Assembly (NCBI GenBank): GCA_002742935.1
Contig: PDON01000060.1
Location: forward strand, 1-64,000
Source: Candidatus Cloacimonadota bacterium
GTDB lineage: Bacteria > UBA4055
Direction of reading: 5' to 3'
Length of the DNA stretch: 64,000 nucleotides
Shown here: piece after piece, positions 8,422-21,002 of the stretch
How positions within the stretch are numbered: the first letter of the stretch is position 1
How the letters are laid out: every line of letters begins with the position of its first letter
Translations under genes and position numbers: made by a program
The notes under the pieces: model-generated
Told to the model about the DNA's origin: nothing
The model's input: the letters and a program-made list of their open reading frames with translations, nothing else
Databases searched by the model: none

Positions 8422-9438
8422 ATGAGAATAGTATCTTTTTTTGCAGGAGCAGGTGGACTTGACCTTGGTTTTGAAAAAGCAGGGTTTGATGTTGTGTGGG
8501 CAAATGAATATGACAAAGAAATTTGGGAAACTTATGAAAAAAACCACCCAAACACTATTTTAGATAGAAGAAGTATTGTTAATATTCACGATAATGAAGT
8601 TCCTGAATGCGATGGGATTATTGGAGGACCACCCTGTCAAAGTTGGAGCGAGGCAGGATCATTACGAGGCATTAAAGATAAAAGAGGACAATTATTTTTT
8701 GATTTTATTAGGATTTTAAAAGCGAAACAACCAAAGTTTTTTTTTGCTGAAAATGTCAGTGGTATGCTTTTAGCTAGACATAGCGAAGCATTAGAAAGCA
8801 TAAAAAAAATGTTTGAAAATGCAGGTTACAATTTATCGTTTCAATTATTAAATGCATCAGATTACAATGTACCACAAGATAGAAAACGAGTATTTTTTAT
8901 TGGCATTCGCAAAGATTTAGGATTTAAATTTCAATTTCCAAAAATAACTTACCCTAAAGTTACATTAGAAAAAGCAATTAAGGATTTAGAAAGTGGGGTA
9001 TTACCTGCATTAGAAAAAAATAAAACGAATGGAAAAAACTGTATTATTCCAAATCATGAGTATATGATTGGTGGATTTTCTACCATTTTTATGTCAAGAA
9101 ATAGAGTGCGAAGTTGGGACGAACAATCTTTTACCATTCAAGCAGGAGGGCGACATGCTCCTTTGCACCCACAAGCACCCAAAATGCAATTTATAGAACA
9201 AAATAAACGAATCTTTGTTCCGAGTAAGGAGCATTTATACAGAAGATTAAGCGTACGAGAATGTGCGAGAATACAAACATTTCCTGATGATTTTATTTTT
9301 TATTATAATAAGGTATCAGTGGGATATAAAATGATTGGAAATGCTGTCCCTGTTAATTTGGCAGCTTTTTTGGCAGAAAGTATAAAACAGCAATTATCTA
9401 CAAACGAAAAAAAAGAAAAAATAGCTATTGCCGTATGA
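8422..9438 (+). CDS. Type II DNA (cytosine-5) methyltransferase
   Basis: A 338-residue C5-cytosine methyltransferase that protects host DNA from the partner nuclease. Motif I is [17 protein letters not shown] at the N-terminus (SAM binding). Motif IV is GGPPCQSW, with the catalytic Cys in Pro-Cys-Gln at about residue 73. Motif VI is A-E-N-V, motif VIII is [12 protein letters not shown], and motif X is GNAVPVNLA near the end. The target recognition region lies between VIII and X. It resembles HaeIII/NgoPII-type enzymes, so GGCC is the expected target, but only by inference. The stop overlaps the nuclease start by 4 bp. Confidence 0.92.
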
Positions 9439-10298
9439 CAAATATTTTAGAAGCTATATACAATATTGTAAATCAAAAACATTTTCAGATAAAAGAGTTC
9501 TATTCAAGTTCAAATAGAGCTAATAATATGGGTGAAGCACTTGAAAATTATATCAAAGATGCTTTTGCAGGAACATTTTATACACAAGATAAAATCAAAA
9601 GGTTGGAAATTTTCGAAAAAAAATTTTCGTGGTTAGGTTCTCAAAATAACCCTCCTGATATTATGATAAAAGGTGGTGATGCTATTGAGGTAAAAAAAAT
9701 ACAAGGAAATGGAAGTAGTTTAGCCTTAAATAGTAGCTATCCAAAAGCAGATTTACAAAGTTCAAGTCCAATGATTACAAAAGAATGTAAATCTTGTGAA
9801 GATTGGGATGTTAAAGATATGATTTATTGTGTAGGAAATGTAGATGATACAAAACTAAAATCATTGTGGTTAGTTTATGGCAGTATTTATTGTGCAAAGC
9901 ACGAAACTTATCAACGAATAAAAAACACTATTTCAGAAGGAATAAAGGCAATTCATAATGTTGTTTTTTCTGAAACAAAAGAATTGGGAAGAGTAAATCA
10001 AGTTGACCCTTTGGGAATCACAAATTTAAGAATTAGAGGAATGTGGCAAATTGAGCACCCAAAAAAAGTGTATAACTATTTGCATGCATCGGGTAATCAA
10101 GATTTTGAGTTGGTTTGTATTATTCCTAATGAAAAATATAAAAGCTTCCCAAAAGAAAGTCGTTTCAAAATTGAAAACATGAAAGAGCAAGGATTTAGCA
10201 TTGAAAATAGTAAAGTGAAAAATCCGAACAACCCAGCAAAACTAATAGATTGTAAATTGATAAAATTTATAAGTAAATGCAAAGAACACATTGTATAA
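9435..10298 (+). CDS. Type II restriction endonuclease, NgoPII-like
   Basis: Encodes 287 residues. Features recalled from the NgoPII family (PF09521) are present: [14 protein letters not shown] near residue 25, then [18 protein letters not shown] (about 73-90). The latter supplies the Asp and the Glu-x-Lys of a PD-(D/E)XK active site. L-A-L-N-S-S-Y-P-K and M-I-T-K-E-C follow. NgoPII cleaves GGCC; this specificity is inferred. It is co-translated with the methyltransferase through an ATGA overlap. The R-M pair sits between host genes manA and trmB and so is probably acquired. Confidence 0.78.
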
Positions 10299-17364: not shown

Positions 17365-20300
17365 ATGAAAAGAGTTAGTTTTGTAAATTATTTAAGATTT
17401 AGAATCTTCATATTTTCCCTTTCGGCTGCTACTTTATTGATAGCTCTATATTTTGGATTATCAATTCTTGAACTGAATAATAGACCTCAAAAAATAAAAG
17501 AAAATTCTCATGAATTTCAAAGAGCAAAGAACTATTTAGTTTTCCAAGCCGAGGAGATTAGAAATAGTTTTGATGAAAGATATGAAAAAGCTAAAAAACT
17601 ATCAAAAGATAGGGCAAAACAGGGCTATCTTATTGCAAAAAGCATATATAATTCAGGTAAAGACAACTTTTCAAATAAAGATATATCACAAAAAATTAAG
17701 GAAACTATTAAGCATATAAACATCCCTTACAATAAAGAAAACATATTCATAATAGATATGAAAGATGTTTACTCTTTATTACACAACAACCCTGAAACAA
17801 AGGTAAGAAACCTACTGGACTTAAACCATAAAAACAGCGTTAAATTTGCCAGAGATATATTTGAGATTAGTAAAAATCCCGGTGAAGATTTATATGAACA
17901 TACTTGGAATAAAGTCAATAGAAATGGAACAAAATCTAAAAAACTATACTATCTAAAATATTTTAAACATCTTGATTCCTTCATTGGTTCAGGAATAGAT
18001 ATAGAAGATATTAAAAATAGTATAAAAAAAGATATTTTAAAAAGTATTACCCAAAAAAAGGATAGATTCAGTAATTCTATTTTCATAAGTACACTGGATG
18101 GAGATGCTCTCATTTTTAAGGGAAGATTTTTAGAAAAGGGAAAGAAAATATGGGATCTGTTTAAAAGTGGCAAGGATAGTTCTAATAGCAGTAGTAACAA
18201 TTTTCACAACCTATGTTTAAATGCTTCAGAAAATAGTGAGGGAGAATTTATAAGATATGAAGTAAAGAAGAGTTTAAATCAGAACTTATTTATATATGGC
18301 TTAAAGGATTTCAACTGGTATCTTGGTAGTGTTATAGGATCAGAAAAAGTAAAGAAAGGATTCCCAATTTACAATACTGATCTGTTCATATCAAAGAAAC
18401 TAATAATAATATTTTCAGCTTCAATAATCCTGTTTATTCTTTTTTTGTTTCTTTTTGAAAAGATATTGAAAAAGATAAAGAATGAAGTTAGAACATTTAC
18501 AAATGTTTTAAATGAAACTTCTGAAGATAAAAAAAGAATAAACTTCAACAATGTTAAATTTGAAGAGTTTTATGAGCTGGGAGCTAAAACAAATGTTATA
18601 AAAAAAGAGCTAATAGAAACTAAGAAAACATTCAATAAAATATCAGAAAATCTTAAAAATGTTCTCTTTAGAACCAGAAATTTTGATGGAGATTATGAGT
18701 ATATTAGAAATTCAAATAAAGATCTCCATAATGAAAAACCTTTATTTTATAAAATAACCACACCAAACTCATTAGAAAAATTAGATAAAACATGGAAAGA
18801 TTCAAAAAGCATATCTCAAGTTGAAGATTTTGACTTTTCTGTGTTACATAAAAATGGACAACTTAAACATTTTAACCAAAAAAGGAATGTTATTTTTGAT
18901 GAAGATGATAATATAGTTACAATTGAAGAGATAATCAAAGATACAAATCTGTTTTGTAGTAAATTTAATGAAGCTGAAAACAGTCAGAAAAAGTATAAAT
19001 ATCTATTTTTAAATAATCCTACTGCAATGGTTGAGTTTGATTTCTCTGAAATTAAAAAATATATAGATACAACAATTCGTTTAGGAAGTAATTTTGAAAA
19101 AATTATTAAGAAGAAAGATTTTATAGAAAAATGTTTGGAAAGATTAAAGTTTGTCAGATACAACCAATCTTTACTGGATGTTTTTAATTTTAAATCCGAA
19201 GCAGAGATGTTAAGAGAGGTTAAAAAATCCATTTTAACAGAAAGAACTGATAATTTTAGAAATCTATTACTATTCTTATTTAAAAACAAAAAGAAAAGTG
19301 TGGAAGAGTTTGAAACATTAGACACTAAAGGGAGAAAAAAATATCTAATAGCCCAATATTTTTCCAATGACAACTATGACAGAGTTATAATGTCCATAAT
19401 TGACATAACCCTCCAAAAAGAACATGAAAAAGCATTAAATATAAGTGAAAAAAACTTTAGAACTTTAATGGAAGAATCACCTCTTGCAATAAAAATTTTC
19501 AATAAAGAGGGTAAACTGACAAAGGTTAACAAAGCATGGCAAAACCTCTGGGGAATATATGACACCAAAGATATATTTGAGAAGTATAACTTTAGAAATG
19601 ATCCTCAATTTGAAAAACTGGGTCTTTTAGAAGAGATGGATAGAGTATTAAAAGGGGAGACTATTTTTATTCCAAGAGTAGAATTTGATCCTAAAGAATC
19701 AGGATATATAGGAAGAAAAAGAGTTATTAATATTATAGGCTATCCACTATTGAACGATAATGAAGAGTTGAATAAGATTGTTTTGATATACAGAGATATA
19801 ACATCTGATTTAGAAATTGAAAAAAAATTACAGAAAGTCCACACTCTTGAAAGAATTGGAAATCTTGCAGCCGGTATTGCACACGACTTCAACAATATTT
19901 TAACAAGTGTTTATGGAAATATCTCTTTAAGTAAGCTAAATCTTGATCCGGATAATAAGTCTCGCTACTATCTTGAACAATCAGAAGAATCTTTAGAAAG
20001 AGCAAGAAAATTAACATCTCAGCTTTTAACATTTTCAAAGGGAGGAGCTCCCATAAAAGAGAGTACATCTATTGTTTCTTTAGTTGAGGATGTTGTAAGA
20101 TTTGACCTTTCAGGAAGTAGCATAAAACTAAATATAAGTAAGGAGAATGATGATATGCTATGGCCTATTAAAATTGATGTTAGTCAAATTCAACAAGTAT
20201 TTTCAAATCTAACAATAAATGCCCAAAATGCTATGAAAAATGAAGGAAATATAGATATCAGCTTTAAAAATATTGAGATAAAAAATCATAAGGCTCTTAA

Positions 20301-20646
20301 GAATGGTAGATATATTAGAATAATTTTTAAAGATAACGGAAAAGGTATAGAAAAAAAGATATTAAACAGCATCTTTGACCCTTATTTTACTACTAAAAAT
20401 GATGGTCACGGCTTAGGACTTGCAATAGTTCAATCGGTTATAGTAAAGCATTCAGGATACATAAAGGTAGATTCTAAAACTGGACTTGGAACTACATTTA
20501 CCATATATCTTCCTGCCGATAACAGTAATAACAGTAATAACAGTAATAACAGTAATAACAGTAATAACAGTAATAACAGTAATAACAGTAATAACAGTAA
20601 TAACAGTAATAACAGAGTAATAACAGTAATAAGAAAAAAATCTTGA
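17365..20646 (+). CDS. Membrane sensor histidine kinase (hybrid kinase interrupted before its receiver)
   Basis: Encodes 1093 residues. TM1 (about 12-34) and TM2 (about 345-369) bracket an extracytoplasmic region with two Cache-type ends, one near 194-216 (Y-L-K-Y-F...I-G-S-G-I-D) and one near 308-328 (K-D-F-N-W-Y-L-G). The cytoplasmic part has a linker, two or three PAS-like regions, and HisKA with A-G-I-A-H-D-F-N-N (phospho-acceptor His840). The ATPase N box is N-L-T-I-N-A-Q-N-A-M, followed by D-N-G-K-G-I and G-H-G-L-G-L-A. A 9-bp repeat then codes Asn-Asn-Ser units. A 2-bp insertion in the repeat sends the frame to a stop at 20644, so the receiver is encoded in the -1 frame. Confidence 0.9.
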   Translation: MKRVSFVNYLRFRIFIFSLSAATLLIALYFGLSILELNNRPQKIKENSHEFQRAKNYLVFQAEEIRNSFDERYEKAKKLSKDRAKQGYLIAKSIYNSGKDNFSNKDISQKIKETIKHINIPYNKENIFIIDMKDVYSLLHNNPETKVRNLLDLNHKNSVKFARDIFEISKNPGEDLYEHTWNKVNRNGTKSKKLYYLKYFKHLDSFIGSGIDIEDIKNSIKKDILKSITQKKDRFSNSIFISTLDGDALIFKGRFLEKGKKIWDLFKSGKDSSNSSSNNFHNLCLNASENSEGEFIRYEVKKSLNQNLFIYGLKDFNWYLGSVIGSEKVKKGFPIYNTDLFISKKLIIIFSASIILFILFLFLFEKILKKIKNEVRTFTNVLNETSEDKKRINFNNVKFEEFYELGAKTNVIKKELIETKKTFNKISENLKNVLFRTRNFDGDYEYIRNSNKDLHNEKPLFYKITTPNSLEKLDKTWKDSKSISQVEDFDFSVLHKNGQLKHFNQKRNVIFDEDDNIVTIEEIIKDTNLFCSKFNEAENSQKKYKYLFLNNPTAMVEFDFSEIKKYIDTTIRLGSNFEKIIKKKDFIEKCLERLKFVRYNQSLLDVFNFKSEAEMLREVKKSILTERTDNFRNLLLFLFKNKKKSVEEFETLDTKGRKKYLIAQYFSNDNYDRVIMSIIDITLQKEHEKALNISEKNFRTLMEESPLAIKIFNKEGKLTKVNKAWQNLWGIYDTKDIFEKYNFRNDPQFEKLGLLEEMDRVLKGETIFIPRVEFDPKESGYIGRKRVINIIGYPLLNDNEELNKIVLIYRDITSDLEIEKKLQKVHTLERIGNLAAGIAHDFNNILTSVYGNISLSKLNLDPDNKSRYYLEQSEESLERARKLTSQLLTFSKGGAPIKESTSIVSLVEDVVRFDLSGSSIKLNISKENDDMLWPIKIDVSQIQQVFSNLTINAQNAMKNEGNIDISFKNIEIKNHKALKNGRYIRIIFKDNGKGIEKKILNSIFDPYFTTKNDGHGLGLAIVQSVIVKHSGYIKVDSKTGLGTTFTIYLPADNSNNSNNSNNSNNSNNSNNSNNSNNSNNSNNRVITVIRKKS
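20521..20630 (+). repeat. 9-bp microsatellite coding a poly(Asn-Ser-Asn) linker
   Basis: Ten perfect AACAGTAAT units (20521-20610), one unit with an extra AG (20611-20621) and one more perfect unit (20622-20630). Gain or loss of whole units changes only linker length. The AG insertion shifts the reading frame. Confidence 0.92.
20634..20640 (+). promoter_or_regulatory. A AAA AAA slippery heptamer before the kinase stop
   Basis: A run of seven A, phased as A-AAA-AAA in the kinase frame, two codons before TGA (20644-20646). A -1 slip here continues as ATC-TTG-ATA-ATG-GAT, exactly the receiver-domain frame. It is a candidate programmed or transcriptional frameshift site. Confidence 0.5.
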
Positions 20647-21002
20647 TAATGGATGATAATGATTTAATCTGCAAGATGCTATCCATGATACTAGAGGAGC
20701 TTGGATACAGTTCAACAATAGTAAACGATGGAAAGGATGCAATTGAGGAGTATAAAAAGCAGTATGAAAAGAAAGATCCTTACGATCTGGTAATTATGGA
20801 TCTAATAATCCCTGGTGGTATGGGTGGTAAAGAGGCTATAAAAGATTTATTAAAGATAGACAAAAACATCAAAGCTATTGCCTCAAGCGGATACTCAGAT
20901 TCGGATGTAATCTCCTCCTATGAAGATTATGGTTTTATAGGCAGAATCCCAAAACCATACACTCTGGATATAGTTAAAAACTGTATAGAAAAGCTTATAT
21001 AG
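20643..21002 (+). CDS. Response-regulator receiver domain (probably the C-terminal part of the upstream kinase)
   Basis: A receiver (REC) domain of about 119 residues. It has the acidic pair in M-D-D-N-D, the phospho-acceptor Asp in L-V-I-M-D-L-I-I-P-G (about 50), the Ser/Thr switch in A-S-S-G-Y and the conserved Lys in R-I-P-K-P-Y. Read alone from TTG 20643 or ATG 20649 it would lose the first beta strand. The codons just upstream in this frame read K-K-K-I-L-I, which is that strand. The domain therefore makes sense only as a fusion to the kinase, reached by removing the 2-bp insertion or by -1 slippage at the A7 run. It has no ribosome binding site of its own. Confidence 0.8.
   Translation: MIMDDNDLICKMLSMILEELGYSSTIVNDGKDAIEEYKKQYEKKDPYDLVIMDLIIPGGMGGKEAIKDLLKIDKNIKAIASSGYSDSDVISSYEDYGFIGRIPKPYTLDIVKNCIEKLI

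Follow-up and report, generated by a model that had tools for sequence, protein, structure and literature searches.

Small indels in simple repeats are known to inactivate two-component genes, among them the phase-variable sensor kinase gene bvgS of Bordetella pertussis with its C6/C7 tract (PMC1891110) and the phase-variable genes flgR and flgS of Campylobacter jejuni (PMC3930126). The locus described here resembles these cases, but in bvgS and flgR/flgS changes of 1 nt in a homopolymer switch the frame directly and the variation has been observed, whereas here the repeat unit has 9 bp and is frame-neutral, and a single 2-nt duplication is known from one sequence. With the -1 frameshifting of dnaX the locus shares an in-phase heptamer of the A_AAA_AAR type and two possible products. 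Unlike in dnaX, the heptamer of the kinase gene is accompanied neither by an SD stimulator nor by supporting conservation, and a shift would add the distal domain instead of removing it. Shift sites of the A_AAA_AAR type are in use in bacteria, A_AAA_AAA being much less shifty than A_AAA_AAG in E. coli, and the transcription slippage reported for bacteria involves runs of nine A or T (PMC5009743). No publication on frameshifting at A_AAA_AAA in histidine kinases or on linkers of varying repeat length turned up in the literature searches. The source genome itself possesses a dnaX gene (L064, G000:C29, reverse complement ~2797-2860) with the arrangement GAGGAGG-ATC-AAAAAAAA-G, in which a run of A8 follows the ATC, and with an in-phase A_AAA_AAA; its -1 frame stops early (K K R C Y stop) and, judged from this arrangement, the gene likely employs a classical programmed frameshift (gamma/tau).

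The window, that is the whole 64-kb stretch of DNA that was analyzed, contains on its forward strand an open reading frame for a sensor histidine kinase of 1093 amino acids (17365..20646). Pfam matches were obtained for dCache_2 (3e-31), PAS_4 (5e-6), HisKA (4e-10) and HATPase_c (4e-22), and HisKA and HATPase_c, which are expected of a hybrid histidine kinase, are both present. The HATPase part ends with YLPAD, after which a 9-bp coding minisatellite with the unit AACAGTAAT (Asn-Ser-Asn) begins that forms the inter-domain linker (20521..20630, forward strand; 12 units, 11 of them exact). This array consists of (AACAGTAAT)x10 at 20521-20610, the 11-bp unit AACAGAGTAAT at 20611..20621 and a further AACAGTAAT at 20622-20630, and is followed by AAGAAAAAAATCTTGA. 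The frame break coincides exactly with the 11-bp unit on the forward strand, the penultimate one of the array, in which a 2-nt AG duplication separates the reading frame of the kinase from that of the receiver. At its 3' end the kinase frame reads ...NSN-NRVITVIRKKS, the residues RVITVIRKKS being out of frame, and terminates with a TGA at 20644-20646 (forward strand) that overlaps the TTG 20643-20645 of the receiver frame. Reading of this TGA as a Trp codon was considered and rejected, as TAA is the next codon in the kinase frame and recoding would be of no help. Elsewhere in the window (8422-10295), a C5-cytosine methyltransferase gene is directly followed by a gene for an NgoPII-type restriction endonuclease, and the two constitute a complete type II restriction-modification pair.

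The receiver reading frame (20613..21002, forward strand) is not the frame of the kinase, but lies at -1 relative to it; it is open from 20613 and ends with a stop codon at 21000-21002. Its translation begins QSNNSNKKKILIMDDND... and contains a Response_reg domain (E 4e-16; ~20640-20972) in which the catalytic D-D/D/S/K residues are kept, with the acidic pair in ILIMDD, the phospho-acceptor Asp in VIMDL, the Ser/Thr in ASSGYS and the Lys in PKPY. The receiver frame is without a usable start codon or SD. The initial annotation had described the locus as a hybrid sensor kinase split by an additional AG within a 9-bp repeat, and its coordinates and frame arithmetic turned out to be correct to the base.

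The array is exceptional both in the window and in the genome. It attained a TRF score of 210, compared with at most 64 for every other array in the 64 kb, and the AACAGTAAT repeat has no second occurrence in the 2.63-Mb genome, not even when 3 mismatches were allowed. A codon-degenerate pattern search did not detect the array in any of 12 other genomes of the family, and none of these relatives possesses the repeat linker. Array and frame break are far beyond chance. As its units are near-perfect and absent from the 12 family genomes, we consider the array to be young and unstable. In a contingency locus, changes in the repeat unit switch the frame, but the 9-bp unit is in frame, and gain or loss of units alters the length of the linker and not the frame. 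The earlier idea that repeat slippage varies the frame hence does not apply to 9-bp units; it holds for the rarer 2-nt sub-unit event, which alone switches the frame and which, as a reverse duplication, might on rare occasions switch it back.

In domain order, receiver signature and catalytic residues the protein corresponds to hybrid histidine kinases with a C-terminal receiver (L011, L012, L014, L015), but these relatives are fused, whereas in the window the receiver is out of frame and a pure 9-bp repeat serves as linker. In the closest homologues (L011, L012, L014, L015 and L017), one ORF encodes both kinase and receiver, joined by linkers that are short and variable, and their receiver signature is closely similar to that of the window, for example MDLTIPGGMGGKEAI...SSGYS. 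Because these closest homologues are uninterrupted fusions, we regard the gene as a hybrid kinase that was split by the AG duplication. Compared with L011 and L012, identities amount to 46 and 50% for the receiver and to 50 and 48% for the kinase core, so that the receiver is without detectable decay. With its catalytic residues kept and with a conservation like that of the kinase core in the comparison with these two closest homologues, the split should either be of recent origin or an artefact of assembly. In comparisons with more distant homologues (L013, L014 and L016), identity was 29-42% for the receiver and 45-50% for the kinase core, a lower receiver conservation that may be normal for this domain. 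Proper orthologues are lacking, since the nearest homologues align over the C-terminal part alone (residues ~593 to 1051), and a peptide-pattern search of genome contigs for close relatives retrieved one distant Nitrospinota homologue and nothing else.

Shortly upstream of the TGA, the A7 at 20634..20640 (forward strand) is a slippery heptamer in the correct phase, A_AAA_AAA, with the stop 3 nt past it. Formally, the receiver frame would be re-entered by a -1 shift on A7, as had been proposed initially, and the phase was confirmed. If programmed -1 frameshifting of the ribosome or slippage during transcription took place at this site, kinase-only and kinase-receiver products would arise in a fixed ratio as in dnaX; besides the phase, the nearby stop and a receiver frame open from 20613, the use of A_AAA_AAR sites in bacteria and the cassette that dnaX of the source genome seems to carry are in favor of such a mechanism. 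However, A7 is made up of Lys codons that belong to the receiver itself (AAG AAA AAA ATC) and that enter the A_AAA_AAA phase automatically upon a 2-nt insertion, and we judged it to be incidental. In the 51 ORFs of the window (55.5 kb), 48 in-phase A_AAA_AAA heptamers were seen, in agreement with the 43.7 ± 6.2 expected from codon shuffling, and the kinase ORF alone holds four others. Across the window genes of both strands, this sequence of 30% GC shows no depletion of in-phase A_AAA_AAA heptamers. When random 2-bp duplications were simulated in the window genes, about 5% of them gained an A_AAA_AAA in the stretch from the break to the new stop; for any X_XXY_YYZ the value was 27%, or 20% when the overlap was 20-45 nt. 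In an A-rich genome such as this one, A7 does not exceed the chance expectation. Neither an SD-like stimulator upstream nor a structural stimulator downstream was encountered at A7: among 49 such sites it holds rank 19 for downstream MFE, indicating average folding, the fold of 147 nt around the site has an MFE z of -0.96, and the RNA structure around it gave no Rfam match. The combination of SD and A-run seen in dnaX of the same genome is absent at the kinase A7. Furthermore, A7 occurred at the receiver start in none of the 10 homologous junctions inspected, the nearest homologues being fused and none of them from the same genus, and A_AAA_AAA is far less prone to shifting than A_AAA_AAG in E. 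coli, and transcription slippage in bacteria has been reported for runs of nine A or T (PMC5009743). The suggestion of the initial annotation that the cell could make both kinase alone and kinase-receiver found no support as far as a purposeful shift at A7 is concerned, and we consider programmed frameshifting at this position very unlikely. Separate translation of the receiver is possible but unlikely. In a true two-gene system, which we consider very unlikely, the receiver would be made by termination-reinitiation at TTG 20643 or at ATG 20649. The former overlaps the stop (TTGA) in an arrangement able to couple translation, and other neighboring kinase and receiver genes exist in the genome, but neither codon is preceded by an SD, both are located within the first strand, and a start there would cut into beta-strand 1 (leaving MIMDD or MDD). 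In contrast, receivers that adjoin kinases elsewhere in the genome (L091, L096 and L081) have their own ATG and a complete first strand, with clear SDs of the AAGGAG type in the cases of L091 and L096. In addition, the window frame is open upstream through the linker codons QSNNSNKKK, a relic of a fusion. The naturally separate neighbors L047/L096 (G000:C27) and L050/L091 (G000:C6), whose receivers have SD and ATG, are a useful control for distinguishing split from broken hybrid kinases.

Another explanation is that the true sequence consists of 9-bp units throughout and encodes an ordinary fused hybrid kinase, the additional AG being a sequencing or assembly artefact. The break falls within a near-perfect repeat of 110 bp, which no other part of the window exceeds in difficulty of assembly, the genome is a draft of 99 contigs, and all close homologues are fused. 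On the other hand, a 2-nt duplication is unlike the usual homopolymer error or a collapse in unit count, and no other broken gene was noticed among the window genes scanned, which are rich in long A-runs. Those with a Pfam match mostly have near-complete domains, and 26 A-runs of 8-9 nt are located within intact window ORFs, which argues that the assembly is not generally indel-prone. An artefact thus appears rather unlikely to us, although it deserves to be taken seriously. That the repeat linker acts as a mutational switch by which the kinase is joined to its own receiver or separated from it, while slippage on A7 still yields a little fused protein from the 'off' allele, seems very unlikely.

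The explanation which we favor, and which is probably correct, is that of a hybrid kinase with a young repeat linker, whose receiver was put out of frame by a real and recent AG duplication. In a kinase of the order dCache-PAS-HisKA-HATPase-linker-receiver, the linker would have turned into a coding minisatellite of pure 9-bp units through recent expansion, and an AG duplication in its penultimate unit would have shifted the C-terminal receiver into another frame. We infer that the cell indeed carries this duplication, that slipped-strand mispairing produced it and that signalling is altered by it. The sequenced allele is predicted to make a kinase with a tail of 41 residues and without receiver, and any fused product resulting from -1 slippage on A7 would be an incidental one of low amount. 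The receiver DNA is intact, and a 2-nt slip in the reverse direction or any compensating indel could bring the receiver back. As it stands, the locus is mainly a warning that an in-phase A7 near a frameshift in A-rich genomes is not evidence of programmed frameshifting. If the duplication is real and variable, the locus would constitute another simple-repeat switch of a two-component regulator, one that uncouples the receiver rather than abolishing the kinase.
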